Positions 2,704 through 64,000 of a stretch of 64,000 bases of DNA are shown piece after piece. Where the stretch lies: NCBI GenBank assembly GCA_018389105.1, contig JACATO010000604.1, forward strand, positions 434,001-498,000. Reading direction: 5' to 3'. Both the position numbers and the translations under genes were made by a program. The notes below the pieces were generated by a model, which had not been told where the DNA came from, searched no databases, and worked only from the letters and a program-made list of their open reading frames with translations. The DNA comes from Nautilus pompilius (taxonomy: Eukaryota > Mollusca > Cephalopoda > Nautilida > Nautilidae). Every line of letters starts with the position of its first letter. Position 1 is the first letter of the stretch.

Positions 2704-2990
2704 TAATGTTGTTGATTAGTTTCTGATTAGTTTTTTTTTTTTTGCCATTACTATATGCGTTATCTCTGACTTTCCTTTCCACATTCCACCCTTTTTTACA
2801 ATGATAGAGTAAATCCAGTTTTGCTTTGTGTTTGTTTGTTTTTTAATAACTTGCTTGTATCATTAATTTCGAGTAGATTTGAGTAAATTTGAATCTTTAA
2901 TCCTTTTAAAAATATTTATGGGCTCTTCTGTCAAAAAAGAACACAAATAACTTTGTAGGAGGTCATAGTTTTCTATGGTACTTTATGACA

Positions 2991-16600: not shown

Positions 16601-19600
16601 TGAACCGAGAAGTGATAGCCAGATTTCTGCTAGCACTCTCAAACATTGGCTGTTCCACAGCTTTTCATCTGTACATCATATTAGGGTACCATTGTCCATT
16701 CTTGTTATAAAAGACACTTTGGTGTACCACCCTGGCAATGGTTTCTTCCAGGCACTCCGAAAATGAAGAGTTACAGTAGGGATTTCTCTGCCGGTGTCAG
16801 AAGTGCCAGGTGCACAATTGGCACTGCTTTCCAAGGATAACCATAGTACTTTAAGCTTTCTCACCAGAGTTGTCCCCCCCCCTTCCCTGTAAAGAGGTAA
16901 TCTCTGTTGTCATTACAACAACCACTTATGAAATATTCTTAATCATCAGAATCAGAAACCTGTTGTTTTATTTTCATTGTTTTGTTTTTTTTTTTCTCTA
17001 TAGTAAATAATTTTAAAAAGTGTTAGTTTTATTCTCACAACAGAACTGTAGAAATCTTCTAATTGAAAGTGTAATCAGACAGATTCTGTGGTTGAACATG
17101 GCTGTGTATCATTGCTTGGATTCAGGCCGCCGCTCCTTGGTGGCACACTCAAAACAAACATTGAGATGAACAGAAACTCTACAACTACAGCTTTTTCACT
17201 AGATGTACTTTCTGATGTCACTACTGTGCAGATTATTTTTTCTTGTCTCTTTTCCATTTCACCATTACCAGCTATGCCATGACACCTGAACATCCGAGCA
17301 TAGCAAAGTTTGGTAGTATATTACTCACCAAATATATACAACCAAAAAAATATTATTTTTAACTTGTAAGAATATAGATTTTTTAAAAAATTATATTTAA
17401 AGTTGGAGCATGTGGTGATTAAGCCTTATTTGTGTCTTAAGTTTTCACAATTTAGAAAAAAAATTTTAAAAGAATTTTGTTTTGTTTTTTCAATGGCTCA
17501 CTTTATCACTGTTGTTTTCCAGGCCATGCTGGATCTGTCAGCAGACCAGGGCTGGCTAGTGACGACTCTGCGGGTCATATTGCTGATCCAGATGGTGATC
17601 CAGGGTCGATGGTGGCACGACTCTACCCTGCTCACACTACCCAATGTCATGCTCTACCACCTAACATGCTTCAGGTAAGGTGGGTGGGTAGGAGAGAGAG
17701 CCAGCAACAGCTTTCTCTGTTTGTTTGGTTTTCTTTGATGAGATGGAAACCTCTGACCTCTTCTGCTTTGTAGGTTGAAACCCAGAGGCAGTGAGAGGAG
17801 GAAGGGGTTTCCAGTTGCTCAGGGATCTGTGGAGACCCTGCCTGAGCTGGTATCCATATGTGCAGGGAATTATGAGACGCTGCTGTCCTTGTTGGACAGT
17901 GAAATGAACCAGGTGCACATTGACCAGGTAAATAAAATTAATTGACATAGTAAACATGAGAAGACAGAAAGCCATCACTTGCAGTTTGCTTATTTGAAAG
18001 GCATGCCATGGGATTTCAAGTTTTTATCAGGGGAAGTAATTGGCTATAAGCACCTGCCATATAAAAAATAACTTTTAATTTAAAAACAACTGGTTTTATA
18101 AATTACCCATGATTAAGGGCAGTTAATTATTTAGATAAATATTTTACTTAACTTTGATCTTTGTTTTCCTCCAGGTGTATCAAGTGTTGATCAAGCTTCC
18201 ACAAATGGAAGTCAGACTAAGACTTAAGGGCTGGTGGAAAGGGGGTCAGGATCATGAAGAAGCAAAACCTGTTCCCATAAATTATATGCGTGAGTATTTA
18301 ACTCCCAGTTTGGTTGTAAGCATTTGGGTCTGATTAGCTCCATTAACCCTCTCCTACATTTGGTGAAAGCATGAAGGGCTCTATAGAGATTTTGATGCCA
18401 TGTCAGACGTGTCAGGCTCTACATAGCACAGGATTGGCAATGCTTCTGTGTTTTCCCAATGGGGTTTCTTTCTCTCATAGGCCTTAGTGTATGGGGAGGT
18501 GGAGGGAAACGTGGAAACAGCAGAAAAGTAAGATGCAGACAGACAAGTAGAAAGGGAATGAACGATCTGAAACGTACGCGTTGTTAGATCCCTTGCCCCA
18601 TCATGTGATAAAACCTACATCTGTGATTGGTTCTTAGTTGGACAATAAGGAGCTAACTGCTACACAATCACATTACTTCAAAACTATAATTAACCGTGTT
18701 TGCTTTAGTAAAAGTCTATTAAATGCAGACATGGTTCCCAAAAGTGAAATACCTATGATGAACATATAGAGGTAAATCTTCTGCCTTGTGAAGAATATGT
18801 TAGTTTGTTGCAGAAAACGGCAAATAAAGACAAGCTTTAGGATGGATTCATTATGTTAATATAAGCCACCTTATGCAGCATGAAGAGTCTCTACCCTGTT
18901 TGCCATTGAATCAACAAGATTTAGTATCACCGTCTGGTTCCAGTTCACCCTGTATCCATGTGAGAGCTTCCTTTAATTCTGTCATATTAGTAAGACAAGG
19001 ATGGGCTGTTCTCAGCTGATAATCTAGATGCTCCCATAGGCACTTTATCAGATACATATTACAGCTCTGAAGGTACTCAGGAAAGAACTTTAATGCCTTG
19101 ATTTTCCCCAATTATGGTTATATGAATGGTATGGCATGTGGTGTCATCTTCCTGACAAGTATGGGCACTAACTCATAGTATTCCTTGTTGGTAGGATTGT
19201 AGGTATCTCTTTAAAATGGCAAGGTTTCCAGCAGAATTGAGACATCCTTTGACAAATACCAATTCTGTTTCTTTACCATTTTAGATATCAGTCTAAACCA
19301 TGACACACCTGCCTTCATTACATAACTATGGACCTTAAATTGCCATGATGGCCAACAGTTGGTTGAAAATACATTTTTTTGATGTGAATCATATTAGAAA
19401 CTAAAAGTTCTCTTTCCCACAGAGTCACATGTAGAGTCAAAAAAACTTCTTGAGTGCAACAGTGACATTTGGAAATGCACCATCAAGATTCTTTGATTTA
19501 ATGAACTTTAAAAGTTCAGTTGATTTTACTTTTGATTTTAAGTCCACATGTCCAATGAAATTTTTTTTAATGTTCAAATTGATGAACACAGTCAACATCA

Positions 19601-22600
19601 AAGCCTATCTCATTTTCCACTGAGTTAAGCAACATAACTTAGCTTTTCATGATCCACAGTGGCAAAAGCTTATAGAAAACCAAAATCTTCAGAGAGCTCT
19701 TTGTATGCTGTATGATGTACCACATGTGATGATTTCAGTTTGTTCAATATTTCCAAAAATGTTTCTAGTCAGAAATTTTGACTGGAAGATTCTGAGAATC
19801 TTTCCTCAGGTGTTTTGGATTCACCACATGGCGTTTCCATCACCTTACACATTCCCTGTCATACTTATATGTCTGAGAAATTGTGGACATCATTTTGTTT
19901 GCTGCATCTTTCATTTATTCGAATTGATCTCCTGGGTGATCAGCAAAGTCCTCTAGTGAATATAGCAATGTGGTTACAGTAAACAAATTAGTAATCTCAA
20001 TTTAAAGAGAAAACACCAACATGCGGCATCAACTAAGCTGTATATTTCTGAGTTCTACCACAAATGCAGTTTCCAAATGTTCAGGACCATTCATAGGAGT
20101 GTTCGTTTCTGTTCTTGTAGTTGGTGGTTGATCTCTTGCATCAGCAAGTTCCTTCAAGTTGTCATAAAAGTTACTGTAGTTCAAATACAACGCTTTTGTT
20201 GAGTCCACCCAAGACCATTGAGTTGTTGATGCCTTCAGTGTGAGAACTGGTTTGTTGCTGGACCACTTTCCAGACAACCCATCATTGCGGGGATCCTGCA
20301 GCAAATATAGAGATTCAATATAGGAGTCCAAAGAAGTTAACTGTTGCAAGACACCAGCTAACTCCAAGTCTCTACCAAATTTAGTGACATGGTAGAGGTA
20401 TTGTCGTACCATTGTCTACCAACAGTTATGAATATTAATCTCCAGTGATTCCTGCACACATTCCCGCACACTTTCTCCAGTATGGGTATAAATTTTAAGA
20501 AACATTCAACAGGTTCACTATTTTGGCTCACAGAGTAAAGTTGTAAATGTCAACTAATCTGTACATGATAAATCAACAAATGATACGCCTTTTTCTGCCA
20601 ATGAGTGAGATCATTCTGTCATGGATGATGGATGGTAGAAGACAGGTAGTTTTGATTTCCACAGCTCGTGTTCTGTAATCTAGAAAGATGTTCTGCTGGA
20701 AATCATTGTATTTTACAACAATTTCAAGTATCCCGAGATAATTACCGCTGTGTGAAGAATCCGATTATCCCATCATCTTTCAAACCCAAACTACATTCCC
20801 TGATGAATGTTATATTTTCCACGAGTCACTGAAGTACCACTTGTCGGTTCTTTCTTTCGTTTACAATGTGACGCTGAAGCTCAGTATTCTCACAGCTCTT
20901 AGCTCAGTTTCACCGGATAACGTTTGTTGCTTGGTGATTAAAGGTAAACTCTTCAATGAGAACAGAGTGAATGTAAAATGAAATACTTTTGCTTTTTGAT
21001 AGGGAATAAAACAACCACTCTTTTTCCACTGTTTCTCCATTGGAATGTGCACAAACAAATATTCCATTTTTTAGAAAACTCCATTTCTGTTTCTCTCCCC
21101 ATGTCGTGTATTCTCAGAGTCGAGGTGAAATCTAGATCATGGTTTTGTCACCAAGTATGACCAGCTTTAGACCAATAGTTGCAATGCTCTTTATTTATAA
21201 TCCACATTTCCAGATCAGTAATAATGCAGATTTTTGGAGAAATGTTTAGCACCTGAACTGAAAAGTCTAAAAGACCGATTTCTCTTCTGACAGTATTTTG
21301 TGGTCACACGTATGTTTAGAATATCGTCAAGCCATTCTAGAAGACTTGTTGTCAGAACTCTGTTTCCAGTTGTATGTTTAATGCTCACTTTGTCAGTCGG
21401 CTGTAACCATCATCTTTTTGGTTCTTTGTCTTTCAATCTAGCAGTAGTGATGTTTCACTTTCTCTTCAGCAGACCCAACAGTAGTGCTGTTAAGCTTAGG
21501 TTCAGACTTGCATGAAGTCAAGACTCTTATTTTACAGATGGCTCTCGTCCTGACAGTGACTGGATTCAACTGCATGCAGATCAGGAGTATGTTCTTCAGG
21601 TGGAACTGACTCGGATCAACAAAATAAAGGTCAGTTTCTCTTTTGAGGTGGTGCGCTAGAGGAAATGTAAGTTTTACAGAATCTCCGCTTTGTATTTTAT
21701 AGATAGCTGAACGAAATTTCACATGTTCTCCAGTTAATTGTGCTGTAAGAAAACAAATATTTCAAAAAATAAAGAATTCTTTATACAGTAACAGACATTT
21801 ATATGTATATGTCTGTATAAAAGCTTTTTCCACTTGGCAGTTTTACCACCCATAAATACAACCATGCCTGGATTCCATTGAAGTATAAATCATAAATGTT
21901 AAACAATGAAATTCCTTAGAAAGTTTGTACTGGCAGATAAATGTCATGGCTCAAGCATTGGTAAAAAGACTTCAGCAAAAGCTCGGCCCTGTTGTACAAG
22001 TCACACAACAAAAAAAAAGAGTAGAAACATCTACTGCAATTTAATGTTTTACTCTGAAACATTCCTGATGGTCTAGTGAAAGATTCTCAAAATGTAGGTT
22101 CACTATTCCAGTTACTATCATCTGGTGATGAGGAATGCTTGAACTAATGTTATGTTGTTTTGTCTAAGCAACATATGGTAATTAACTTTCTATTCTTAGA
22201 TGTCCTAGCAGTTTATTTATCTTTTGATTTAAAAGTTTTATACTGTATGGAACAAAAGTAAGTCACAGTTATTTCTCTTTAGTGGCTGTTTCTATGATCC
22301 TACAGCCACCTCACTGACACTTATCTATGCTGATTAGCCACCTTTTAAATTCTTTACTAGAACATTGTACAGAATCACAAAGTCCTCAAAATTATCCAGA
22401 CTTGCTAGGTTTTGTTTGTTTTTTTTGCCATATATTCTGGGTGAAAGTTAAAAGATCCTGAAAAATCAATTGGTGATGGCATTGCATATATTTCGAAGGT
22501 GTTTGCCATCTCCATGATCCATGATGCATCTAGATATTGGATTCAGGTGAAAAATTCATCTTCATTTCGTTCTGGTGTGGTTCAGAGATCTTTTGAGCCC

Positions 22601-23292
22601 AGGTGTCTTGCACAGGATGTGCAGAGTGACACATATTCAGGTGAGCTTCCCTCACAGGTTTCCTGGCTCTGTAACACATTGCTTCTCGCAAGAGATGGGG
22701 GTAAATATCAAGAACGGAGCTCCCCCCCCCAAAAAAAACCCTTGTGAAGTAAACTCACATTTTTCATTGTTTCTTGCAGATTCCCATCTTTACCAGATGA
22801 TTCTCTTTCCCAACCCCATTAGTTTTAGCATAGCTCTCCAGAACTTCTGAAACAAAGGAACTTAAAGTAACAAAAGCTTTTTAATTCTTCAAAAACTCAT
22901 TAAAGCAAGGAATTTATAGTGTTCAATGCTAATTGCAACCCTTCAACTTTTTTCTCCCTCTTTTTTTATTTTTATCTTTGCTCCCACAGAGACACGAATC
23001 TCGGGTCTACGCGCCTAGATTTTCAAAAACCAAGGATGAAGGCTGGTTTCTTGTCATGGGCGATGTGGAATCGCAGGAAGTCATAGCATTGAAAAGAGTT
23101 GGTTTTGTTCACAGCAGAGCAAATGTGCAATTAGCGTTTTACACGCCTGAAACAGAAGGACGGGTGATATACACATTATACATAATGAGTGACTCATATC
23201 TGGGACTTGATCAGCAGTACGATGTGTGTCTGGACATTGTACCGGCAAGCATTGAGAGCCAGGTGAACACCGAGGTGAAACAGCACAGGTGA
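10537..23292 (+). CDS. ASCC3: ASCC3 helicase, C-terminal portion (nine exons, 5' end outside window)
   Basis: Activating signal cointegrator 1 complex subunit 3 is a large Ski2/Brr2-type ATP-dependent helicase with two helicase cassettes. It works with ASCC2 and TRIP4 in splitting collided ribosomes and with ALKBH3 in alkylation repair. Nine exons (10537-10648, 11299-11433, 13219-13274, 14364-14532, 17523-17674, 17774-17927, 18175-18289, 21538-21629, 22990-23292) join through AG/GT sites with matching phases to give about 429 C-terminal residues. These cover the second Sec63 domain and its C-terminal sandwich. Diagnostic stretches are GRIASYYYLSHKTV, LPVRHNEDQVNS, HLLLQAYFSR, DTKSVLDQAVRILQAMLD, LIQMVIQGRWW, LHADQEYVLQV, KTKDEGWFLVMGDV and MSDSYLGLDQQYDV. 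Brr2 (SNRNP200) is the only close alternative, but the sequence follows ASCC3 more closely. Both helicase cassettes lie outside the window. Confidence 0.93.
11299..11433 (+). CDS. ASCC3: ASCC3 exon b
   Basis: The acceptor is TTATACAG and the donor TCA|GTAAGT. It is 45 whole codons, phase 0 to 0, and encodes DNQGITSLTLGRIASYYYLS and on to MADLIEVLS. GRIASYYYL is among the best conserved strings of Brr2/ASCC3 Sec63 domains. Confidence 0.93.
13219..13274 (+). CDS. ASCC3: ASCC3 exon c (short)
   Basis: This 56-nt exon has the acceptor TTTTTGTAG and the donor ACAG|GTATAT. It encodes SANEYSELPVRHNEDQVN plus two bases of a serine codon. LPVRHNED is a family hallmark. It is too short to show as a long open frame. 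Confidence 0.92.
14364..14532 (+). CDS. ASCC3: ASCC3 exon d
   Basis: The acceptor is TTCTTAACAG and the donor CTCCAG|GTGAGT. One base completes the split serine, then DLAQQVPLEVN, TKTHLLLQAYFSRLQLP and DTKSVLDQAVRILQ follow. This is the helical bundle of the Sec63 domain. Confidence 0.94.
15856..15986. mobile_element. Palindromic (fold-back) MITE, full copy
   Basis: Two arms of about 52 bp (15,856-15,909 and 15,934-15,985) are inverted copies of each other around a ~24-bp loop. The outer part reads TTGTTACAGCACCAGTAA in both arms and the inner part AGATGAGGCTATAAT. Only a few mismatches and indels separate the arms. It sits in the ASCC3 intron between exons d and e and has no coding capacity. 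Related copies lie at 38,739-38,878, 2,991-3,041 and 4,930-5,003. Confidence 0.8.
17523..17674 (+). CDS. ASCC3: ASCC3 exon e
   Basis: The acceptor is TTTTCCAG and the donor TTCAG|GTAAGG. It encodes AMLDLSADQGWLVTTLRV, then LIQMVIQGRWWHDSTLLTLP and HLTCF, and leaves two bases of an arginine codon. LIQMVIQGRW is nearly identical to vertebrate ASCC3. Confidence 0.95.
17774..17927 (+). CDS. ASCC3: ASCC3 exon f
   Basis: The intron before it is only 99 bp. The acceptor is GCTTTGTAG and the donor GACCAG|GTAAAT. One base completes the arginine, then the exon encodes LKPRGSERRKGFPVAQGSVE, TLPELVSIC and LLSLLDSEMNQVHIDQ. ETLPELVSIC corresponds to ESLPELIHAC in vertebrate ASCC3. Confidence 0.92.
18175..18289 (+). 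CDS. ASCC3: ASCC3 exon g
   Basis: The acceptor is TTTTCCTCCAG and the donor ATGC|GTGAGT. It encodes VYQVLIKLPQMEVRLRLKGW, then WKGGQDHEEAKPVPINYM plus one base. It spans the entry to the C-terminal immunoglobulin-like sandwich, in the position of VGISVKGWWDD of vertebrate ASCC3. The GT donor after ATGC keeps the frame into the next exon. Confidence 0.88.
18911..19111 (-). pseudogene. Tc1-like transposase C-terminal relic
   Basis: A minus-strand frame inside an ASCC3 intron reads LIKCLWEHLDYQLRT, then NMTELKEAL. This resembles the end of Tc1-type transposases (NPIENLWEHLDRQLR...NLTELKEAL). The third catalytic residue region is already degraded. No terminal repeats were located, so the limits are those of the readable frame. 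Confidence 0.5.
20029..20412 (-). pseudogene. hAT-type transposase fragment (DUF4371/ZMYM-like)
   Basis: A 127-codon open frame on the minus strand, inside the ASCC3 intron at 18,290-21,537, contains LKASTTQWSWVDSTKALYLN, then YDNLKELADARDQPPTTRTE. This aligns by eye with the conserved TRWSARADATKAL...Y.EI...L..I..D..Q...TR.EA segment of hAT transposases and ZMYM1/ZBED5-type domesticated relatives. The first half of the transposase and the dimerisation end are not readable nearby. It is oriented against the host gene and is a transposon fossil, not an ASCC3 exon. Confidence 0.65.
21538..21629 (+). CDS. ASCC3: ASCC3 exon h
   Basis: The acceptor is TTTTACAG and the donor ATAAAG|GTCAGT. Two bases complete a histidine codon, then GSRPDSDWIQLHADQEYVLQ and VELTRINKIK follow. 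WIKLHADQEYVLQV is the matching vertebrate string. The intron before it is 3.2 kb and holds the Tc1 and hAT relics. Confidence 0.93.
22990..23292 (+). CDS. ASCC3: ASCC3 terminal exon with stop codon
   Basis: The acceptor CTCCCACAG opens in phase 0: RHESRVYAPRFSKTKDEGWF, then VIALKRVGFVHSRANVQLAF, YTPETEGRVIYTLYIMSDSY and LGLDQQYDVCLDIV, to a TGA at 23,290-23,292. This matches the last ~100 residues of ASCC3. The stop codon overlaps a good splice donor (CACAG|GTGAGG), so a further small exon cannot be excluded. A poly(A) signal 89 bp past the stop favours the stop being real. Confidence 0.9.
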   Translation, partial: RHESRVYAPRFSKTKDEGWFLVMGDVESQEVIALKRVGFVHSRANVQLAFYTPETEGRVIYTLYIMSDSYLGLDQQYDVCLDIVPASIESQVNTEVKQHR

Positions 23293-28128: not shown

Positions 28129-28492
28129 TCATTTGTCTTTGTCTTTAATTTTTATCTTCAAAGTCGCTGGAATCTGACTCACATCCAGTTCCACATAAGC
28201 AGTCTTTTTGTTGCCATCGAATTTTTCCCGGATCTGAACAGAAGGGCAGACATCGGGATTTTTCTCATCTCTTTCTAACCCTGGATAGATGCTTGACTTT
28301 TGGCCAACAGGAGGCAGCACCTGATAAGCACTGCTGCTTTTCGTCTTGTTATCGAGCTTGGTAAACTGATTATGGCCATGTGTGATGGGCACGACAGCCA
28401 TGTCATCAGTGGTGGTGGACTTGATTACCTTGTGATTCCAGTTCCCATCATTTGTCTTAGCCAGCTCATAGTTTGTCTTCCTTGCCTTTTTT
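28129..28492 (-). CDS. Membrane-protein gene, cytoplasmic tail exon and stop
   Basis: The acceptor is AATTTCAG. The exon encodes residues 246-366 and ends at a TGA (28,129-28,131). It opens with KKARKTNYEL, a basic stop-transfer patch. SSSAYQVLPPVGQKSSIYPG holds the YxxL-x9-YxxL pair (Y302 and Y315, codons within 28,326-28,276), and KKTAYVEL holds Y345 (28,197-28,186). The tail ends in a lysine-rich KIKIKDKDK. The whole tail sits in one exon. Confidence 0.85.
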
Positions 28493-31400
28493 CTGAAATT
28501 TGGCAAACAAAAAAAATGGCAACTGCTAATACCAGGAGACAGAAAGTTTATATGGAGGCTTTTTTGTCCAAAAGTACACAATTTTCTTAAAATATTTACC
28601 TACACCTCTACCTGGATTGTTTTTTAGAAATGTAAATGAACTGAATAAATTACTAATATAGAATGTAGTTAGCAGTGATAGCATAAATTGACTAATATTT
28701 TGTTATATCTGGAGGCCTTGAAATAAGCCAAGATGGCTTCTTGTCTAAACAGAGGTACCTCTTAAACAAGGTATCCCAAAATCCAGAATGTAGGATGGCC
28801 AGGAAGACAGTAAGTTTGAGAAGTTTAGTTGTTAAATTATTAAGACTTAAAACCTTTTCTTTGATGCCACACATCCATGTGCTTGATAATGAGACTACCC
28901 AATGGAAATTAATTAAACCTGTACAGTTAATAATCAGTTTCTTCTCACTCTTCACTTGTCAGTCAGCCACATCAGTTTACTCCCACATATATAAATGAAG
29001 AGTTCTGGTAGGCTGTTCCAGGTACATGTGGTGAGGGCTGCAGGTAACATCACTAACCAGTCAAGACCCCCCCCAAACTGTACCCAGGTAACTTGCTTGG
29101 TCAGCAAAGTTGATACCCCACACCTTTCCTCTTTACTCTTAGTTCACTGCATAATTCATTTTGTAATCATTCTAATAAACCATCTGAAAGTAGGATAGTA
29201 GGAACCCTATTAATGTAAATCTATTACAATGTGGAGATGAACAGAGTGTGAAGAAGTAATTGATCAGGACCAGAAAGGGTTGTATAATTGCTAATGAATG
29301 TTTACAGTTCATTAGGAGAAAGTGCACCCACCACCTGAGACAAAAGTTGTGCACTTATTTCCATTTTTTTTCTTTAATGTACATTAATGTAATTTGTTTA
29401 ACTTAATATGATGGATTGTTAGCATGGTAGTGTGTAGTGCTTGCCATTGGTCTTCCCTATATCAGTTCTCCAGCTTCATCCCACTGCTAATCAGAAGAGT
29501 TCTAGTAAGTTTGTTAGGTTGGCTCAATGTGTCAGGCACGCACATGTGTAGGCCATCATATACAGATGTCATGCCAACCACTGCCTCATCGTTTGCCAGT
29601 GTCCTCTTCCCACCTGGTTTAAAGTTCCCTGCCCTCTCATGTAAGCAGCAAAAAACAAAAATAAAACAAACAATATGAAGACGGTTAACAAACCTGTCAA
29701 TAGTACAAATGCTTGTGGTGGAGTGCTCAGTTATATTAGTCTGACTACAAATCAACATGATTTAGTGGACGATTAAATATAAAAGGGAACAAATTTCTAA
29801 ACTCATAAACAGATAGGGAGTGTTATAAGTTCTCCTATACATGTAAAACATGTAAGCAGACTATACTTTGTCTTGAAAGCCAATCAAGCAAGACATCAAT
29901 AATGCTAATAGTTCATCAGCCTTGGTTTGCAATGCTTCATGGGATTGCTTCCTTAATTTATGGTGGGTGTGAAGGTTAACATTTCCACAGAAAGCTGAGT
30001 AATTTAAAAAACACTCACCTGCACAGGTAAATAAGTAGACCGATAATGAGGGCAATAAATGCAACACCCAGGACTGCACTGACTCCAATCACAACTAGAA
30101 ATTTTAAACAAAAGAATGCTATGGTTAGCAGCATTATTTCCTAAAGATGTAGATGAAGTGGAAATGTTAATACAGTGAAAACTTAGTTTTCAAGTGATAT
30201 TTCCAGGTTAACATAGCATTGATTGAGGATGAACTATATCATTCTCTTTATCTGTAATATGTTTGTGTGCATGCATCCATATTCTTAGTTTCTGCTATCT
30301 ACAGCATCTGAGGATAATGTGGAACTCTAGGTTTTTGTTTATTGCTCTGTCATCAAAATTAACCTTTGGTGTTAGAAATCATTTGTCTGTTTCTCAGCTA
30401 TGCCCTGGTATCTGATCACTGCACTCTTTTCTAGTTCACTCTTAGAAAATTCACAAGAAAAAATGACTCAGTTAAAACAAAAAGGAAAGTAAATCCTGAA
30501 TGGAACTTGTAATAAATCAATTGGTTAGGGGTTTACGTGATCTGAGTAAATCTTGCAACTATTTCAATAAATATTTTACAAGTAGAGAAAATGTCCACAA
30601 CTTTATACCTGGTGTGTAAGTTGAATGTTGATCAGAAACATCTGCAGCGAGGATTCCAGGCTGGGATGTAAATGCTGAAAGAAAATGATTGGAAAAAAAA
30701 CAAAGAAGAAATGTTAGCAAGCTGTAAGCCCCCATTCCATGGCAAAAATGTGCTCAGCAGTTGAAATAGCAGTGGGGTACCGACAGATACGTTTAGGTGA
30801 ATGTTTGGCAGGGAGTAGGTTAGTACAAAGATCAAGAAAGTAAACATTATCCAGGATAAGCTTGTTGCAAATATTTAGAAAAGAATTGGCAAACACTTCT
30901 GAAAGTAATCGCATGATACTGTTACTAAATGGGTCAGATAGTGTTGTTGCTAAACACTAGGCACAGGCAGATCTATTCACCACACACCAGTTAGAAATTA
31001 AAAACTAGTTAAGGGGATAGAAATTCACAAAGAATTACTTTATACTTTCACTTAACTTTCTGGAGCCTGTTTTCAAATGACAAAAAGCTAACTTTTTCTT
31101 TTTTTTTTTTTTTTGTCATTTCTTCTTTAAATGTGCAAAAGTAAAAAGTTGGTACCTGAGTCGTTGAATGACGATGATTTCACTGGCACATTGGACAAGG
31201 AGGGCATAACATTTGAACTTATTTCTGAAAAACATTGGGAACAATAAAGAAATGCTTTGGAAAGTTTAACCTCCCACTCTCATCTCATTTTAGATTTCCT
31301 AATGAAAATAAGGTATTTAAAAATTACCAACATTGTGGCATATTTACTAATAAAATAACTTTATTGTGTAGAGTTGAGTTGAAAAAACATTTAAAATTCA

Positions 31401-34400
31401 GATTTTGTGATGCTTCAGATGAAGTCAGCCAGAAATTGAACCACCACATCATCATCATTGTATCTTTCCTCTTACCTGTGATTAAACATGCACAAGATGC
31501 AGAAACATTCATTTGTACTAGGAGCTTTGTTGTTATGTCATATACCAGTCTCTACATGGGAGACAACCCTGGAAAGGTAGTGTAGTGTCACCAGCTGGTG
31601 AGCATTGCCTATCCTGCATCATGAGGGGCCCAGCAGTTACACTTTTGGCAAGTAAACCCTACTGAACTCAACATTTTCAGATGTGAAAGGAAACTGAAAT
31701 ACCCAGAAAAAACCTGCATGACTGGTAGGTGAAGAGTGAGAAGAAACTGTGCCATGCCAAATTAAGCTGATCTCAAAGCAGAAATCAAATTTGGTCCTTT
31801 AGCCTTGGCAGTGTACTGGTCTAAATAGCATTACTGTAATATCTGGCTGGCCTTTATTTGTAGGCCCCTAATATTTTTATTTCTCAAAATCAAACAAATT
31901 TGGGTCATGTGTGTGGAACTACAAGTTATTTAAGAAAGGGACTTCCACCCATTGTGCTCCCACAAGTAGTAAGTATAGCTTTCAGTGTTGGTCATTAATG
32001 GGGTACAGCAGGTAGATAAAGGTAAGTACCATTCATCCTGGTATATTTTAAACCAAAGAATCACCCACCCACCCCACTGTTCCATGATTTGTGAGCAAAC
32101 TGGTTTTAAAAAAGTGTGCCAGGTCAATAAATGATCAATATGAACTTGTATCTAACCTCACACATGGTCAGAAATAGAGAAAATGTCCTTAATCTACCAT
32201 AATATCAACAGTTTGCAATACATGGTATCATTTCAACTGCTGCTCTATGATGTCACACGAGGATCGCTTCTCAGAACACTAACTTATCTAGATACCTTTC
32301 TACCACAAGGAAAATTAATGATGGCCATGAATAGAGAGAGGCCTGTGTTCGGTTCCAAATGGTGTATCGGAGCCAGTTTGGAAACATTCTGCATCATGGT
32401 TTCTTCTCACTTCCATGCTGCCAGTCTGTTTGCGTGGGTTTCTTCTCTCAACTAAACGGAGGAACCCTAATAGGAATTTTCCAGATACTTGACTGTCTTT
32501 TATCTTGACCATTGCTTTAGAGCTCCTAACCTGTACCTGAGCAAATTGCCCATTCACCAAGGCTGTCTGATGTCCCACATAGGTGATTGTTGAAATTCTT
32601 TTTTTCATTTTACTAATTTTCTTTTGGGAATGTACAAGATTTATGATTAATGTTTTCCCAAATTGCTGATGCCACAAAAACTGCATTTACAAAGAGGGTT
32701 CAATAGTTGTTGATAAATGATTTGTTTCATTTGGTTGATTCTTAGGGGCAAAATCTCTAGTCCAAGCTAGAAAGTCTGCAAGTTGTTGCATACACCAGTC
32801 TCAACAAGGGAGATAACCTTTCTACATTTGAAACTATCCTGGAGAGAGAGGTGTAGTGCTGCAATTATCTGCTATAGAGCATTGCCTATCATGCACCCTA
32901 AGGGGCTCAGTGCTTCTGATGTTGGAAGGAAAATCCCCACTAGACAGTTTCTTGGGGGGTGGCAAATTTTAGGGGTTCAATTGAATCACAGATGCTTAAT
33001 TGCAAAATGTTGAAGAATCTATTATTTAAAAAAATTGGTTACAAATCCAATAAAATCTGACCCTGAGGCAAAAAGGTTGCTGTGTGCAGAAATGATTAGC
33101 TAGCAGCACCTGGGCCTGTGAGTTGCAACAAGTAGACAATCACCACAAATTAAAGATTCTGACAGCAGGTGGCATTTTTGGTTTTAGTGATCTCATGAGT
33201 TCTCTTGGTAAAGAATATCTACCGCTCTCAGAATTCTGGTCTGTCTCAGTGTGTGTCCTTCCTTGAGGATTTTTGGGACATGTATGAGCATTAGATTCTG
33301 TGTTAAGACACCAACAGCTCAGACTAAATAACTGATGCAGAACGGTTATGTGATGAAAACAGCTATCAGCTGCTGAACACCAAAGGCAAAAGGGTTAAGA
33401 AAGTGCTAGAACTAAGTAAACAGGCAAGGGGCTCCTTTAATAAGTTTTTGAAAGGAGAGAAACTCTATTACTAGAGACAAATGCAACTGCACAGTGGTGA
33501 CAAAAGTGAACGGGATCCCGCTGTTTGTGCTGTGGTTGAGGGAGGCTGCAGCAGAATAACTTGGCTGAGCGCCCTAACAGCGCACACCTTCCCTGCTACT
33601 AGAATTTTTCGTTTTTAGATGCTGGAGGATGGCCAGCTGGCAGGGAAAAGACTGAGCCAGGAGCTGCTTGTTAAACATGCACATACTTTGTTATGAATAC
33701 AGCTAATGGTGAGGGGGGGTCTTTTCTGCTAGCTGGGATATAACACACAGTCACCACGTTCCTGTGTGTGTGAGATGCAACAACAAATTCTGGAAGGTGT
33801 TGAATCAAAATATTTTCAGATGCTGTTTCTCTTACATTTAATATTTAGGAAATAAACCAACCCTGAAGTACAGATAACCATTTCTGGCTCTGATTTCCTT
33901 GTTTTAAAAGTAGCCTGTCAAAATATATTCTCCCCCAACCACCACCCTGTTTTGTGCAAAGCTGAAAAAAATGTTTTTTTTTTTAACTTGTCTAATTAGG
34001 GATGTGACGAGAAACCAATTACTGTGCATTGTCCAGGTCACAAGCTACAAATCTTCCCATGCTACAGCAGTGATGGCACCAGTCTCTCAAGAGCAACTTA
34101 ACCCTTCTGCATCATATAAGCTAAAAATCACAAGAGGGAAAGAAGTTACAGCTGTACAGAATGTTGTCATGCTCTTCACAATCCTGCAGAATCCAAAAAT
34201 TTTGTTACTTTGTGGCTAGACATAAACACACACACAGTCAGAAGAGGGCAAGAAGTTTCAAGAACATAAATGATTCTGCTTTGGCCAGCAAAAGTGCACA
34301 TCCAGACTACTTTTTTAACAAAATATTTAAGCTTTCTGCATTCCTGGCTGATGATGCAGCATGGTTATTACCAACAATATTTTATCAAGAACATCTTACA

Positions 34401-37400
34401 CTTCTGGCAGTTAAGCCACTGAGGAGTCAACTTCGATGCTTGGAAGGAACATCTCTCTCACTTCTTCAACAGCCAGCCACACAGCTTCTGTACACTATGA
34501 TTCCCTTACACATCTAAATATGAAGAATTCTCAGAGATTTTCAGTAGGTCTGTTCCTAGGAAAAACTACAGGGTCACCACATGAGAACCTTTTCTCCCTA
34601 GTCTATCATGAATGGTCATCCAGCACTGTAGACCACTGGGATAGCACATACTGATGATGATAGTGATATGTCATTGGAAACGGTCAATCGTTATTCATTC
34701 TTTCCCAGAGATTTTAAAGTTTGTTATTGTGTCAGGCAAATGAAGCCTCTTTAGTCTGTCTATATATTTTATTATTATTATTATTTTCTTATTGTGTGAA
34801 TTTATCAGAATTTACCATGTGGTTTTTCACTTGAGTACAACTAATGATGTGCCGTTTATGCTATTCTGATGAACCACATCAAGCCAAAAGAGATCTGCTG
34901 CAGTTTCTTTTAAAGTGGCTACAAACTTCTTGTTTTATAACCTTCTGCTATCAGTTTCAATGCATTGTAGTGCAGTGTTCCATTTTCTCTTCATTTGGAT
35001 GAGTTTCCTAATTAAAAAACAAGGTGAACTTGTGATAATAGAAGTGTTGCTGCAGATGTGGATTTGGGTGGTGGATACAGTAAGATGACTTGCAAGTGTA
35101 GTGCAGCATCAATTTCCTGTCTAATCTGTGTCACATCCTGCTCTCAGGCTGACCTATATTCTGCTGACAGCCTTGAGTACTGCCTGCTGTGTTCATTTAG
35201 TACAAGAATGGGGTAAAATATCTTAGTATATTTAATAGATATCATAATCATTTTTTTGTTCTAAATTCAGAATAATAACTTGTTCTTGAGGATTTTTTTT
35301 TATTTTAAAAATTTTTATAAAGCAATTTCATACTGTTGGAGTTGTCTTTCCTTGAATAGAGTGGGTGGTGAACTGTTTTTAGAAAGATTTGTTTTATGTA
35401 AGAAAGTGATGTATGTTTCAAAGATTATGGTTGTAGAAAATGTGGGACATTTGGAAAAAGTTTTTTAATTTCACTCAAATAAATAAAATTTTTAAAAAGA
35501 GGGGAGAAAAGTGGAGAAAGCAGATAGAGGGAACTTCCTGTTCATGCTGGAAATTGCAGTGCACAAGAGATACCAGCAAAACACAAAGACATGGCCACAC
35601 CCATGTTGCCACATTATCTATTTTGTTTTCTTCAAAGGTAGTATCGCATGTCACTTACCTTTGTTATGGTGAACTGTTGAGGTGGATTTTGTATAGGGTA
35701 GAGAGCCATTTCCACAAATCAGCTTGAAGCTTTGCTCCTTATCTGGAAAAAAAACAAGAAAAAAATTTATATGTTTTGAATAATAATTTGCATGCTAAGA
35801 TGTCGATGATGTCATTTTGTACGTACAGAACCCAACCAAAAAGGAAGGTGTCGCAGCATCCCAAAGCAGCAACAGCTAAGCCGGCCCGGTGGGGCAGGTG
35901 GTAGCAGGGTTAGCTCCGTAAGGGGACCGTTGCTCCTGTACCGGGTTCGATCCCAGGCTGGGGACGGAGGAGAGTTGTCGCTGATGATCGCCATAGCGTG
36001 AAACAGCTGTACGACATCTCCTTGGTGTCCGACGTGAGAGAGACCTCCCGGGTCCTTGGGGCCCACGGTGTCGGGGGACCGGGCCGTTTGTCGGCTCGAA
36101 CTTCTCTCAGTAACGAGGAGGACTCGACAGAGAACGGGCCACTTGTCTTTACGGGATGCTATGCCATTGGCAGAGCCTCGTTCGGAAGTCCAATTCGCTC
36201 AACAACAACAACAACAACAGCAGCAACAGCTTAGTTGGCAGTTGATTTCCATTGTGTTGCACTATGGGAACACGTTTTCTTACTCATGGCCAGATCACCC
36301 TACCTGTCATAAAAGACACTTACCTTTTGTTTTGCGACTGTACTCAACACAGAACTCAGAATTTTTTTTCTCCAGGTCAAACTCAAAGTCCATGAAAAGG
36401 GTATTCCCTCTGTTGAACTGAATACTTTTTGTCACAGTGGGACACGGTGTAGCTGCAGTGTGTGGAATGTTGCGGTACAGCCTCATCTTCATGTTGCAAT
36501 CTTTTTGCTTTTCTGGCAGTTGCAGGTTGAAGAGGGTTAAGTTTACAGTCTCAAGAACACTTGTGGCATTTGTTGAAAAATGACAGATGCATGAGCTCTT
36601 CTGGGAATGTCCAGTCACAAGCAAAGATCCTTGAGGTTTTGCCATTGTTATATCATCACAGACGTGTGCAGCTATATATAAATTTAAAAAAAAAGAAAGT
36701 ATTATTATTCTAGAAACTATACCACATGTCATATCTGTGTCTAGTGTATCTTGCACTGATGGGTGGGAGGTGGGATAAAGAAAAATGTGTCTGGATTATC
36801 TTCCCTGTTTCAGATGCAATAAAAAAGGAATGTAGAGCCTAATATATCTGTTCTGATTTTCTGCTTTCCTTCCAAGGTTTGTAGAAAACCTGGTTAATGG
36901 CTCTGGAAATTTTAAAAGCTAGCTTGTCTTAGAAATCTTAATATTTCTGAAATGAAAAAAAAAATAAGTTTTTTGTTACCCTCTGCCCATATTCCTAAAG
37001 TAAAAAAATTGTAAGCAAAATGATATTTACTATTACCACTTTATTTATATCTGATGCAAGATGTATAAAGAATTGCTATCCTATGGATAGATTTTATTAC
37101 AACAGCAAAAAAAGAAAATGTATGTTTTAACCAGTCCCCCACCTACCTGCATTTACAAATTCTATGATCCATTCCAAATAATATCAGCTAATGTTTCCAT
37201 GTGCAGACATTTAGTTCATAAACTCCACTTTAATAGAATCATAGTGAAGCAAGTTTGCTGGCTGAAGAAAGGTAGTGGTAATCTCATTTTCTGTTCTGTT
37301 TGCTTAATTAAGTTTACCTTGATGTAACACCTGTGTGGAGAAAGCCTAAACAAGTGTTATCAGATATGGCTAATGAGGTCTACTGTACACCTGTACTGGG

Positions 37401-40400
37401 ACTGGGTTAAAATACCTATAAGGGATTTTCTAGTCATTGTGACCTTATCCAGTGTACTTCAATGTTAATGATTGGGATAAAGAACCAGATGGCTGACCAT
37501 ATCTCTATGTGACACTTGCATTACATATATAAATGATGATAGATCACCATGTAACTCTGGTCTCTTTTGGTTCCTTATGTCAGTTATTTAAGATAAAGTA
37601 AAAGAGGATATTGTCTGGAGGGGCAATGGAAGTGCTGTCAGAGTAACCACTGCTTAGTCTAACAAATATGCTGACTTCTTATCTGGGTCTGGGAAAAGTT
37701 GAAACAGGAAGTCTCTGCATTATAGGAAATTTAATGTTTAGGCTGTGCCACTGCAGGGTACACTAATGATGATTGAATTTGAAGATCTACCAGTCTGAAA
37801 ATACTTCTTTAATTTATTAATATACTCATGCTGGTAGAATTCCTAATAGTCATGTCAATAAAAGTAGTAGAAAAAATTAATTCAATCTTAGCTATGACCT
37901 TCATGCAGTCATGTGAAAATCTTTCAATTTCATAATTTTAGTATGGGAGATCATATACCTAATACATTAATTATCTCCCTTGAAATATTCAGAACAGTTT
38001 ATTTTTCCTGTATCTATTGCTCTTAAATTATATATTGCTAGGGATCTGAATACGAAAATCTGGAAGCAACTCTAAACAAGAGGCCAGTGGACAAAGCAAG
38101 GGTGTAGGTAATCCTTTCATGCACCAGCTGTGATTGGAAATACAGACACACACTCAAACTCTGTTTAATCTACACTGATACTCTTCAATGATAATCTGTC
38201 AAAAGCAGGTGTTTCTCAGATAAGACTAAGAAATTCCTTAGCAGATCCCATGCACCATCCATTCCCTTCACAACCACACTGTATTGCCTTAGACAGGGGA
38301 AAGGGCTGGTTGGCTGCCTTCAGTGACTGTAGCAAAATAGAACTGCACAGTATCTAAAGATGCTGTGGCTATTACAGATGATTTTGCTGCAGTAATTTAT
38401 TTGTAATGAGAAAAGGGACGAATTGTTAAACAAGCTTCCAGTTGCCAATCATTAAGAAAGCTTTCCTACAATGCCACACTATAAAAGAGGGCACACTGCA
38501 CCTGGCTTTTAGTCAGAACTTGGCTGAAAGTTGATACCAAGAGCAAAAAAAACAAAAAAGTCCTGCTTCTGCGTGCCGCCTAACTTAGGGTCCAATGCAA
38601 AGGTTAAGTTTCTTTAAAAAAAAACTTAGCTTTTAAAATATTATAACTAATCTGCTGAATAGATATTCAGAGGTTCCCTATTTACATTTGTGCTTGGGAA
38701 TCTTTTGAAGTTGAAAGCTGTGTAGCAATCATTAGGGACAGTTGTTATGGAGGTAAGTCGGCACCAGTAATTCTCTAATAAAACAAAGACGCTAAATCTA
38801 TGTCTTTTTATTTTATGATGTCTATTATAGCCTCATCTGTGTGTTCAATTAAAAATTACTGGTGCTGTTAAAAATTAACCCCGGAAACAGCTATCCCCAA
38901 TCTGCCTCAGCTAGTTAATAAAAATATATTTTTAAAACAATAATTACAATTCCCAGTTTCAAATTCAAACACGAATTTTAGTCTATTAACCATGGACTAG
39001 ATTCTACCAGAACAAAAGGTTTGCATACAATAACTGGATTGGAGGGATAATTGAAGAACAAATAAAGTAAGATTTATTAAAACATTCTCATTATTTTCAA
39101 AATAAAGAGCAGTGTTTTGTATGTAGCTGTAAGTTTTTGTTTAGCATCTATAATCCCTGATGACTTTACTACTAATAACAGTGGTTTATGTTATAATATG
39201 CAAGGAAAACAATTTTTAAAATCCTAAATAAATGAAAATAGAGATTTTAATATTTCTATTCTGTAAATAACTTGGTAAGATTAGACATTTTTCTTTTGTC
39301 ATGTCTTTGCTAATAGTGTGAATAACTGGCAGTAGTTTTATGCTTGCAATCTATATGCACCATAGTATAGGGGAGATAAGTGAACTTAAGTTGTAATTGT
39401 TATTTGTTGAATTAATAGCAATAAGAACTTTGTTATTTGATGTTCATGACAATATAAGTAGAATCTGAATAACTCAATGTCAGATAACTCGAATATACTG
39501 CTTAACTCTAAGTGACGTGCAGGTCTTGGCAAAACATCCCTCTGTCTCATCATAAAAACAATGAAAACTATGGATAACTCAAACTTGCTTTAAGTTAGAT
39601 AAGTTAAGGCATTTTTTCCAGTCTCTTGAACTGAAATTACAGGTTAATTTCTCTTTATAACTCTAAGTTTGTCAGTTGACATTGGATGATTGATTTTGAT
39701 TGCAATTTTCCATGGGTTTGTTAAGAAAAGAAATTCACAGTTTCTTAAATCACTGATCATCAATGACACTAATTACTTTACTAATTTATTGTCACGTAAT
39801 GAAAGGGCTTTGTTGTGATACTTTGTGAGTTGTGAACGTTTGATGTATGGTCAAAAGAAATTTTAAAAATCTGTTTATTTTCCCATCTATATAAAGGATG
39901 CACAACTCCCTCCTCGTATTACTTGTCCTCTGGCTGCCACTGCAGCAACAACTTGCCTGTAACAATTCATACTTTAACGTGTCATCATAAAAACAGCAAC
40001 TGCAGTCTCAATAAATTGAGACAACATATCAGGCAATTGTTGAAGTTGTAAAGCAACTAAAAAGTAAAACAAAGATAACAGAGAGTTTCACATTCCTCCA
40101 AATACTCTGTCCAGATGGCTTAAAGATGTTGATAAGACCAACAATGTTTACCTGAACAATAGAAATGCAAGGAATAGAAACCAGTGACTTAGATAAAGAA
40201 TTCAGCCTCTGATAAGATGAACTTTGAATAACTTGAGTGGTCCCTGCTACGCTGTATCAGTCAGAATGAAATTTAGATGACTGAAAATAAAAATAATTTG
40301 AACAAAGGGCATTCTGAGCATTTTTTTAAAAAAGAAACACCTGCATATAACCTTTAACTTTTGCAGATTGTGCTCATTTAGTATATGAATATTAGGAACA

Positions 40401-42626
40401 TGTGGGAAGAGAGTCAGCATAGTATTGCATTGTGGGAGCATTGGGTTAATAGTGAAGAAAAATTGGTCTCAGATTTTCTGTAACCACTGGTATAGTGTTG
40501 TTGTATCCTACACCAGTTTCAATAATGGGTGTAACCTCTCCACATGAGAGGTAACTGGTGAGGGAACATGGTGCTGGGGGTATCCACTAGATACCGTTGC
40601 CTATACTACACCACGAGAGGCCTGGAAGGACCTATAAGAAATCTTCATTTGTTGGATAAAACTGACGGAACAGCATCAGGATGGTGCGCCAAATGAAGCA
40701 GGTCCTCAGCTTTAGCAAAGATGATTGAGACATTAGCTAACTATGGTGTTACAGTAACAAGTATTTAATAATAACATAACCAAAACTTAAGGCAGGTACA
40801 TACAGATAACTTGAAGACAAAGTAGGAAACTGTACTCTATAAATGTTGAAGGGAGACAAGCATGAGAGAGAATCCTGAACAGTGTTGGGGAAATGATCCC
40901 CTAGACAAAACCAAATGAGTAATTGCACCACTGTTTCAGTCATCATCTAAATTAAGATTGAAATATGAGATTCAGATGATGTTATCCATCCCTCCTCCAT
41001 CAATAATTACAAGTTACACCCACTGATGAAATTCCTAAATAGTAAGGCTGTGAAAAGTTAGGTATTTGTCAATCCAATTTATTACAGCAGCCTGGTCTAT
41101 AGAAATCGCATCACTTATTGCCTCCTGCCCACAACAACAGCAGAAAAGCAACTCAGAGTTGCTGTTTGAACAGAATAACATACCTCTCATAGTATTAACA
41201 ACAACATTTACTTAACTTACAAATAGGAAAATCAATTCTAATATATAGTGGTGTATTGCTATCACTGCCCACCCTCAGTCCTAGTATTAAAAGTAACTAG
41301 TAATAACTAGGCTACAAAATCTGCACCTAGGCAGAGTTTAATTCTAAAACAAACAAATGAAACCTTTGTTTTACAGCAGGAAGTGGCCACTGACTCACAC
41401 AGTCCTGGCATAATGCTAATTTCACCACTAACTCCAGACTGAATTTTCCCAGAACCATTTTAGGTCATTGAAACAATTATTCAACATTTGATAGTCACTA
41501 AGGCACAGATTTCACATTTACATTTGCCCATAAACTAAAAACAAATTTTCTCTTAGTGCATGATCTATTTTGAAATTCCCAACTCCCAGAAACCAGAAAT
41601 AACCAGTGCTTGTTTTCCTTTCTTTCTTCATGCTGATATCATAGTGTAAAACATGGAATTTACATCAATTTAAATATGAAGTGAAATCAGTTGAACAGAA
41701 AGGATTAGTCCACTGTTGAGTGCATGATAGGATTTTTAATGAAATTATTAAATGTGAATGTGTAGCATAAAGGTTGACTATTAACTGAATTTTAAACATA
41801 GTTTTAATAAACTTTTTAAGGGTTGTTTATGGAAATGAGACAGTAGAATACAGCACAGTGATGTGTTAAGAGGACAAGAGAAACTGTCCCCTCTCCTTCT
41901 CCTTAAACCCATCTACTGTACTATGCTGTTTGTTTGTTTATTTGGTATTTAACTTTGACAGGCAAGTTTAACTGAGTTTTTGCATAAGCATTTCAAAACT
42001 ATGAACTATGCTTCACATCCACGCCACTTTTCCCTCTGCTGGTTTTTGAAGATAGGAACACCTAAGGATAGCTTTCCTTTCAGTCATTTCGAGGAAAGAA
42101 GAGAGTCAACCAGAGCTATAGGTGGGCCTAGAATACTAAATTGCCACCATCTAACCAACATTGGGTGGAGAAACTTTGCCCTTCTCCTGTAATTAATTCT
42201 CCCTCTTTATAATTGCACTAAATGAATGTCTTCCTTTGAGCCTCTACTGTGCTCCTCAGAATTAAAAATAATGGATGACAATTAAAGGAATTGTTCAGTC
42301 TAAATTATTGGTGCTCCCATCATTAATGGTTTTTCGTCCCCTGGGAATTTATTTAACCTGGCCACCCACGGTTGTGAAAAACTCAACACACAACAGACAC
42401 CTTCCTCAATTTGCCCAGTTGCCAGATGCATGAATCCCCTCACTCCCCTTCTGAGATTAATTCAGATTAAACTTTTTTACTTCAGAAAACAAAATGAAAC
42501 AAGAAAAGAATGAGCATCTCCAACTGACTTACCTTTCCCGCCGCCTCCAAAGTGACCACACTGCATCGCCATGACACCTGTAACAAGAAGAAATAATAAC
42601 AGCGCTGATGAGGCTAGCAGCAGCAT
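28129..42626 (-). CDS. Type I membrane protein with ITAM/ITIM-like tail, seven exons (family not recognised)
   Basis: Seven exons (42626-42533, 36671-36324, 35742-35659, 31224-31156, 30674-30609, 30094-30019, 28492-28129) join through GT-AG sites with matching phases to a 366-residue protein. Residues 1-20 are a signal peptide (MLLLASSALLLFLLV..GVMA). The ectodomain (21-175) has eight cysteines (22, 36, 59, 61, 90, 108, 139, 157) and N-glycosylation sequons at N66, N75, N121 and N159. A Ser/Thr-rich stalk covers 176-220. One membrane helix (about 221-244, VVIGVSAVLGVAFIALIIG...) is followed by a basic stop-transfer CRKKARK. The tail has Y254, Y302, Y315 and Y345; the last three fit YxxL. The likely role is a cell-surface receptor that signals through phosphotyrosine, or one using YxxL for endocytosis. 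The cysteine spacing is vaguely CUB-like, but I cannot assign a domain. Exons with no open-frame evidence could be missing. Confidence 0.8.
28995..29200 (+). repeat. Dispersed repeat copy (CCAGGTAACTTG family)
   Basis: The core TACCCAGGTAACTTGCTTGG, then GCAAAGTTGATACC and CACACC (29,080-29,123) repeats the 6,773-6,820 sequence. It lies in the last intron of the membrane-protein gene. The limits are approximate. Confidence 0.5.
30019..30094 (-). CDS. Membrane-protein gene, transmembrane exon
   Basis: The acceptor is TTTCTAG and the donor TGCAG|GTGAGT, phase 1 in and phase 2 out, 76 nt. It encodes VVIGVSAVLGVAFIALIIGL and LIYLCR (residues 221-246), one uninterrupted membrane helix. The exon is essentially the membrane span alone. 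Confidence 0.85.
30609..30674 (-). CDS. Membrane-protein gene, stalk exon 2
   Basis: The acceptor is GCTTTCAG-like (TTTCAG) and the donor ACACCAG|GTATAA, phase 1 to 1, 66 nt. It encodes AFTSQPGILAADVSDQHSTY and TP (residues 199-220). It is also symmetric and skippable. Confidence 0.65.
31156..31224 (-). CDS. Membrane-protein gene, stalk exon 1
   Basis: The acceptor is TTTCAG and the donor GACTCAG|GTACC, phase 1 to 1, 69 nt. It encodes EISSNVMPSLSNVPVKSSSF and NDS (residues 176-198), with no cysteine and much serine, as in an O-glycosylated stalk. Being symmetric, it could be skipped without shifting the frame. Confidence 0.65.
31541..31832 (-). repeat. SINE-like dispersed repeat, longest copy of three
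   Basis: Read on the minus strand, it starts with a decayed tRNA-like head (GTACACTGCCAAGGCTAAAG, then a GGACCAAATTTGATTTC B-box-like segment). It continues through TTTCTTCTCACTCTTCAC and ends near CCAGCTGGTGACACTACACT and GACTGGTAT. The end portion, on the plus strand ACCAGTCTCTACATGGGAGA then GAGCATTGCCTATCCTGCA, recurs at 32,790-32,960 and 40,505-40,640. No target-site duplication was found. Confidence 0.55.
32785..32965 (-). repeat. SINE-like dispersed repeat, second copy
   Basis: On the plus strand this reads ACACCAGTCTCAACAAGGGA, then AGAGCATTGCCTATCATGCA, then GGGGCTCAG, matching the 31,541 copy in order and spacing. The tRNA-like end is missing or unrecognisable. Confidence 0.55.
35659..35742 (-). 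CDS. Membrane-protein gene, second ectodomain exon
   Basis: The acceptor is TTTTTTCCAG and the donor AACAAAG|GTAAGT, phase 1 to 1, residues 148-175. It carries the last ectodomain cysteine (LICGNGS, C157) and a sequon at N159, then Ser/Thr-rich sequence. Confidence 0.75.
35879..36218 (+). mobile_element. tRNA-derived SINE with 13-bp target-site duplication
   Basis: The 340-bp element has an A box TGGGGCAGGTGG at 35,890-35,901 and a perfect B box GGTTCGATCCC at 35,944-35,954, then a GC-rich body and a (CAA)n tail. It is flanked by the 13-bp direct repeat AGCAGCAACAGCT (35,866-35,878 and 36,219-36,231). The GC-rich body contrasts with the AT-rich host sequence, so it is probably fairly young. 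It lies between two exons of the membrane-protein gene, in the opposite orientation. The two open frames across it are not genes. Confidence 0.88.
36324..36671 (-). CDS. Membrane-protein gene, main ectodomain exon
   Basis: The acceptor is TATATAG and the donor AAAAG|GTAAGT, phase 1 to 1, residues 32-147. It carries six of the eight ectodomain cysteines, including a CxC pair (59/61), and three sequons (N66, N75, N121). Alternating hydrophobic stretches such as LFMDFEFDL suggest a beta-sandwich. No family is recognised. Confidence 0.8.
38739..38878. mobile_element. Palindromic MITE, second full-length copy (diverged)
   Basis: The right arm (38,823-38,878: ATTATAGCCTCATCTGT, then ATTACTGGTGCTGTTA) matches the 15,934-15,985 arm closely. 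The left arm (38,739-38,800: GTTGTTA, then GCACCAGTAATTCTCTAAT) is diverged and carries a small insertion. It lies in the large intron of the membrane-protein gene. Confidence 0.65.
40500..40645 (-). repeat. SINE-like dispersed repeat, third copy
   Basis: On the plus strand, TACACCAGTTTCAATAATGG, GTAACCTCTCCACATGAGAG, CCGTTGCCTATACTACACCA and GAGAGGCC follow the order of the 31,541 and 32,785 copies. It is the most diverged of the three. Confidence 0.5.
42533..42626 (-). CDS. Membrane-protein gene, signal-peptide exon
   Basis: Starting from the ATG at 42,626, the exon encodes MLLLASSALLLF, LLVTGVMA and then MQCGHFGGGGK, and ends at the donor GGGAAAG|GTAAGT in phase 1. The first 20 residues are a textbook signal peptide with cleavage after VMA. 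The codons for LLFLLVTG are also a polypyrimidine tract ending in an AG acceptor at 42,578-42,579, which can accept the alternative exon at 47,168 in the same frame. I chose this start because of the signal peptide and the promoter-like sequence just upstream. Confidence 0.75.
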
Positions 42627-63770: not shown

Positions 63771-64000
63771 GGTGGTCTGTTGAAAAACTATCCGACTATT
63801 TTCTCCTGTGGGAAGTAATGACGTTAGGGAGGCAAAAGTGTGCATAGTGGAGCAGCATGCCTTCATGCGCATGCGTGGTTTTTGGTGGGCTTGCTGGATG
63901 CATCATTCACTGTCAGGCAGCCATTGTGTGAGATGCTGTACTACTTACTCGTTGCATTTTCATTTCGCCTGTGATGACGGAACATGTGGAGCAACAATCC
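63771..64000 (+). mobile_element. Second mariner copy, 5' end (cut by window edge)
   Basis: After a TA (63,769-63,770), the sequence matches the 5' end and leader of the mariner at 1,377-2,703 for the full 230 bp left in the window, with scattered substitutions. Examples are CTATCCGACTATTTTCTCCT and GGGAAGTAATGACGTTAGGG. The transposase start (ATG at 63,974, MTEHVEQQS) is just reached. Whether this copy is intact cannot be seen. Confidence 0.9.

Follow-up and report, generated by a model that had tools for sequence, protein, structure and literature searches.

Gene structure and architecture of a probable receptor

We analyzed a 64,000-nucleotide stretch of the Nautilus pompilius genome (GenBank assembly GCA_018389105.1, contig JACATO010000604.1, positions 434,001 to 498,000), referred to here as the window. 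Its minus strand carries, at 28129-42626, what is probably a real protein-coding gene for an unplaced type I, single-pass surface receptor. A preliminary description of this DNA, which gave no strand, had claimed a chain of seven exons joining in frame. All seven are present (Table 1), and their joined product is a protein of 366 amino acids (aa) with tyrosines at Y302, Y315, and Y345. The architecture described with them was also recovered: a signal peptide, an ectodomain with eight cysteines (spanning C23-C157), a Ser/Thr stalk, one membrane helix, and a cytoplasmic tail, which we count as 121 residues. The 12 most hydrophobic 19-residue windows of the protein start either at residues 1-2 or at residues 219-228, which indicates a signal peptide and one membrane helix. 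The cleavage site of the signal peptide, after A20, was assigned by eye.

Table 1. Receptor exons and neighboring features, in window coordinates
Feature	Position	Strand	Content	Basis
Exon 1	42533..42626	-	Start codon, signal peptide, C23	In-frame chain; donor AAG/GTAAGT; in-frame TGA directly upstream of the ATG
Exon 2	36324..36671	-	Main part of the ectodomain (aa 32-147), containing six cysteines; weak CUB likeness	162-aa open frame; GT-AG, phase 1/1; CUB profile score
Exon 3	35659..35742	-	C157; stalk begins	In-frame chain
Exon 4	31156..31224	-	Ser-rich stalk	In-frame chain; tail/hydropathy analysis
Exon 5	30609..30674	-	Stalk	In-frame chain; tail/hydropathy analysis
Exon 6	30019..30094	-	Transmembrane helix; last residue C245	Hydropathy peak; in-frame chain
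Exon 7	28129..28492	-	Cytoplasmic tail, YQVL 302, YPGL 315, YVEL 345, stop codon	156-aa open frame; chain; motif shuffles
ASCC3 exons	14335-23292	+	C-terminal part, Sec63/Brl domain
Transposase remnant	1510-2842	-	Mariner/Mos1-like
Transposase remnant	63774-63999		Mariner/Mos1-like
Candidate repeat	35880-36230		SINE-like, GC-rich, within intron 2 of the receptor gene	By eye
GC-rich segment	44001-52000		GC 0.425-0.435

The gene has six introns, every one of GT-AG type; introns 1 to 5 are in phase 1 and intron 6 is in phase 2. Their donors agree with MAG/GTRAGT at nine of nine positions in four introns and at six of nine in the other two. The two large exons derive from the longest stop-free stretches of the 17.5-kb segment (162 and 156 aa). 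In first-order Markov simulations of a 17.5-kb stretch, two open reading frames (ORFs) of at least 150 aa occurred jointly in just 2 of 300 runs, and a single ORF of at least 156 aa occurred in 19 of 300. The first of these counts, the six GT-AG introns joining in frame, and the fact that exon 1 supplies a signal peptide and exon 6 one membrane helix all argue against the view that no gene exists here and that the exons are a pseudogene, open stretches lined up by chance, or a mis-joined product missing exons. Codon usage, however, lends that view some weight. The score in the true frame (-0.276) was not separated from that in frame +1 (-0.281, stops excluded), although the training set was small, at 203 ASCC3 codons only, and the scores of the receptor exons fall within the range of 42 control ORFs. 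Two of the donors are weak, and no relatives came up in protein searches. Taking both sides together, we consider the absence of a gene very unlikely.

A scan for additional phase 1-1 exons gave no candidates, but it was insensitive: in a positive control it would miss at least two real exons because their donors are weak. A tblastn search detected no paralogue of the receptor within the window, where the best hit beyond the receptor's own exons had E 0.5, or in 40 kb of flanking sequence, comprising 10 kb to the left and 30 kb to the right (best E 4.2).

The preliminary description had called the protein unrecognized, and as far as we searched this stands, apart from a weak CUB-like hint. Pfam searches with the whole protein found no family that reached its cut-off; the best was Syndecan (PF01034), which matched over the membrane helix at residues 224-260 and scored 15.1 bits where 25.2 is the cut-off. 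Pfam gave no Ig, EMI, or EGF-like match in the protein, and a sequence search of the PDB returned no relative. Protein searches with the whole protein, exon 2, and exon 7 found no relative either. For the two exons, word sharing was limited to 1 and 4 candidates in the search library, so it may contain few animal proteins. Scans of viral contigs with exons 2 and 7, and of genome contigs with exon 7 only, likewise yielded no relative.

The CUB-like hint arose when the succession of strands and cysteines in exon 2 was seen by eye to resemble that of CUB domains, after which we built a profile from nine such domains. Residues 32-158 scored 9.3 bits against this profile, compared with maxima of 8.3 in 1,000 cysteine-keeping shuffles and 6.4 in 1,000 full shuffles, and the reversed sequence scored -0.6 bits. 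In a ranking of 244 sequences, consisting of the query and all window ORFs of at least 60 aa (a score was reported for 206), the query came first and its own exon-2 ORF second, with the next sequence at 4.6 bits. Other results weigh against a CUB assignment. The domain E-value for the profile was 0.26, and hhalign gave a probability of 4.8% with a pairwise E of 0.008. Pfam CUB (PF00431) had no match at E up to 10 with the whole protein or the domain, a setting at which the HMMER filters discard most matches above 0.1. An AlphaFold model of exon 2 alone, made without relatives, had a predicted local distance difference test score (pLDDT) of 43.7 and was unusable. A divergent CUB-like fold is thus a weak hint, obtained with the single family that was tried after an impression by eye.

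Tyrosine motifs of the cytoplasmic tail

The tail motifs proved to be arranged as had been proposed. Nine residues lie between YQVL and YPGL (L305 to Y315), within the relaxed 6-12 spacing of an immunoreceptor tyrosine-based activation motif (ITAM), and the third motif, YVEL, lies 30 residues past Y315; the tyrosines Y302 and Y315 are 13 apart. Both of the latter also fit SxYxxL and, with it, the immunoreceptor tyrosine-based inhibition motif (ITIM), (S/I/V/L)xYxx(I/V/L). Y345 does not, having T at -2 and being preceded by TA. Leu occupies position +3 after three of the four tyrosines in the tail, and the tail sequence contains no NPxY.

We shuffled the tail 200,000 times and counted motifs that had already been noticed before the counts were made. 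The relaxed ITAM (6-12) appeared in 1,363 shuffles (0.7%), three or more YxxL/I in 727 (0.4%), and two or more YxxL/I in 11,030 (5.5%). At least three ITIM-like sites, under a pattern widened to allow T ([SILVT]xYxx[LIV]), were found in 111. The canonical 6-8 ITAM arose in 599 shuffles, and the real tail is without that form. The excess of motifs in the tail is a moderate departure from chance, unlikely but not wildly so.

These counts bear directly on the explanation that the tail motifs are coincidental, in which case the protein would have an adhesion or anchoring function, would be syndecan-like at the membrane, and would carry tyrosines without a shared function. The motif was picked after the whole window had been scanned, and two or more YxxL/I are not rare among the shuffles. 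Lys and Asp are also abundant in the tail, with 19 and 10 residues among 121, and the receptor shares with Syndecan a membrane helix followed by a basic juxtamembrane stretch, the region of the weak Pfam match. Nevertheless, that match lies below the family cut-off, and the receptor is without the C-terminal EFYA that is a feature of the syndecan family. The Leu at +3 of three tyrosines and the rarity of three or more YxxL/I in shuffles also speak for shared function. We regard coincidence as unlikely.

Several observations weigh against reading the tail as an ITAM-type signaling module. The canonical form, YxxL/I-x6-8-YxxL/I, is absent, since the spacing is 9. None of Y302, Y315, and Y345 has an acidic residue in the five positions before it, whereas ITAM tyrosines are often preceded by acidic residues. 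The YxxL motif also serves as an AP-2 sorting signal. Finally, no orthologue was found in protein or contig searches, and hence no conservation of the tyrosines was seen.

Candidate motif readers and a possible signaling mechanism

If the tail were to signal through tandem-SH2 proteins, the genome would have to encode them. We searched the source genome (727.6 Mb, 2,558 contigs) for SH2 domains and obtained 47 matches, of which 30 were inspected and 5 compared with the PDB. A Syk-family gene lies on contig C502 (37364-60226), with pieces collinear with human SYK. The top 11 of 48 PDB matches of its N-SH2 are SYK/ZAP-70, and tblastn with human SYK located C-SH2 and kinase segments in collinear order between 37.4 and 60.2 kb. 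The exon carrying HRDLAARN shares 69.5% identity with human SYK and the one carrying APE 74.5%, and both were assigned to tyrosine kinase by Pfam. On contig C2045 lies an SHP2 gene, whose C-SH2 has PTPN11 as its best PDB match (3.2e-35) and is adjoined by an N-SH2 and two phosphatase exons; three phosphatase exons were picked by eye and Pfam confirms two of the three. Judged by these matches, both proposed partners, a Syk-family kinase and SHP2, are encoded in the same genome as the receptor. Their presence is necessary for a signaling hypothesis and is no proof of contact with the receptor.

Two further SH2 loci were considered as readers of this kind and rejected. The match on contig C131 is PLC-gamma instead. 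Contig C2096, a candidate tandem-SH2 Syk, is read as CSK: the SH2 at 640024 best matches CSK (2.4e-28), while that at 635805 matches Ras GTPase-activating protein 1 (RASA1, 4.4e-15) about as well as CSK (8.4e-15). Kinase exons lie on the same strand, and an SH3 match falls just below its cut-off (22.4 vs 22.9 bits). This segment (C2096:635805-640242) thus appears to hold a CSK-like kinase gene with two tandem SH2 exons about 4 kb apart, which are possibly alternative exons.

Taking the receptor and its candidate partners together, we propose the following mechanism. A disulphide-rich ectodomain, probably a beta-sandwich of divergent CUB-like type, would bind a ligand from the top of a Ser/Thr-rich stalk. 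Clustering by this ligand would lead Src-family kinases to phosphorylate all three motif tyrosines (Y302, Y315, and Y345). Once both carry phosphate, Y302 and Y315, 13 residues apart, could dock a Syk-type tandem-SH2 kinase, and the Y315/Y345 pair could dock SHP2, an assignment that follows the spacing preferences of tandem SH2 domains. In this way the tail, comparable to the tails of CDCP1 or Draper, would serve as a tandem-SH2 platform that can be switched. We put forward the whole of this proposal tentatively, as the likeliest of the explanations weighed, rating its chances a little below even. A further extension, in which the gene would represent a lineage-specific family whose one tail offers overlapping sites to Syk (Y302/Y315) and SHP2 (Y315/Y345) beneath a CUB-like ectodomain, with activation or inhibition set by which tyrosines are phosphorylated, is a long shot.

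The main rival to this mechanism takes the YxxL sites for AP-2/AP-1 sorting signals; the protein would then be an endocytic or scavenger-type receptor in which unphosphorylated motifs drive uptake without kinase signaling. YQVL, YPGL, and YVEL all match YxxPhi with Leu at +3, and a CUB-like ectodomain would fit a ligand-uptake receptor, cubilin being one of CUB type. Three copies of the motif, one pair of them near ITAM spacing, nonetheless exceed what an uptake signal needs, and readers with tandem SH2 domains are encoded in the genome. Neither point is decisive, and we judge sorting to be somewhat unlikely.

Returning to tyrosine-motif signaling, we find it a plausible function on sequence grounds. 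The preliminary description had suggested a phagocytic or immune-type signaling receptor. The signaling part of that suggestion is favored by the architecture, the tail motifs, and the occurrence of Syk and SHP2 genes in the genome, but the ITAM spacing fits only in its relaxed form and acidic residues are wanting. The phagocytic or immune role is a guess. Of the proposal as a whole, the gene structure, the architecture, the motifs, and the two reader genes are observed, while the fold, phosphorylation, binding, cell type, and ligand are inferred.

The closest functional analogue that we found is human CDCP1. It is described in PMC4395315 as a CUB-domain transmembrane glycoprotein whose tail motifs, YAVI and YGHL, are termed ITAM-like by the authors, and whose tail is phosphorylated by Src-family kinases and then binds SHP2. 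Like the receptor, it is a transmembrane protein with YxxI/L motifs in its tail; a CUB domain is a weak assignment in the receptor. It differs in its length (836 vs 366 aa) and in the closer placement of its motifs (Y734, Y743). The likeness is offered as a functional analogy only.

Invertebrate receptors with comparable tails are already on record. The oyster Crassostrea gigas has CgIgIT2, which PMC11999971 presents as a surface receptor with a membrane helix and a cytoplasmic ITAM, expressed in haemolymph; it has five Ig domains, whereas the receptor has no Ig match in Pfam. According to PMC8092387, the ITAM of Draper works with Shark, the splice form Draper-II has an ITIM that works with Corkscrew, and Draper and MEGF10 recruit Syk-family kinases. 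The engulfment receptors Draper, MEGF10, and CED-1 resemble the receptor in being single-pass proteins with YxxL/ITAM tails. They differ from it in having an EMI and EGF-like ectodomain and an NPxY tail, none of which was found in the receptor.

With CgIgIT2 and Draper described, invertebrates are already known to have ITAM/ITIM tails, and the general picture would be unchanged. Among the open-licence literature matches listed, we found no description of an invertebrate CUB-plus-ITAM receptor, and searches directed at that combination gave no match. If our proposal is true, this would be an animal receptor whose ectodomain is CUB-like and whose tail is of ITAM/ITIM type, encoded alongside Syk and SHP2 in one genome. 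It would also offer a concrete gene for studying tyrosine-motif signaling outside vertebrates, where we found few such receptors described (oyster CgIgIT2, fly Draper).

Surroundings in the window

The ASCC3 exons lie convergent with the receptor gene. Within the Mariner/Mos1-like remnant at the left, the ORF at 2027-2842 carries HTH_48, and more mariner-like ORFs were seen by eye at 1510-2178. At the window's right edge, 228 bases of this remnant (2471-2698) have an inverted copy that is 90% identical. The candidate short interspersed nuclear element (SINE)-like repeat in the receptor intron shows a box B resembling that of tRNAs and has a tail of CAA repeats. The GC-rich segment stands out from the remaining 4-kb blocks, in which GC is 0.341-0.393, and may mark the promoter side of a further gene.

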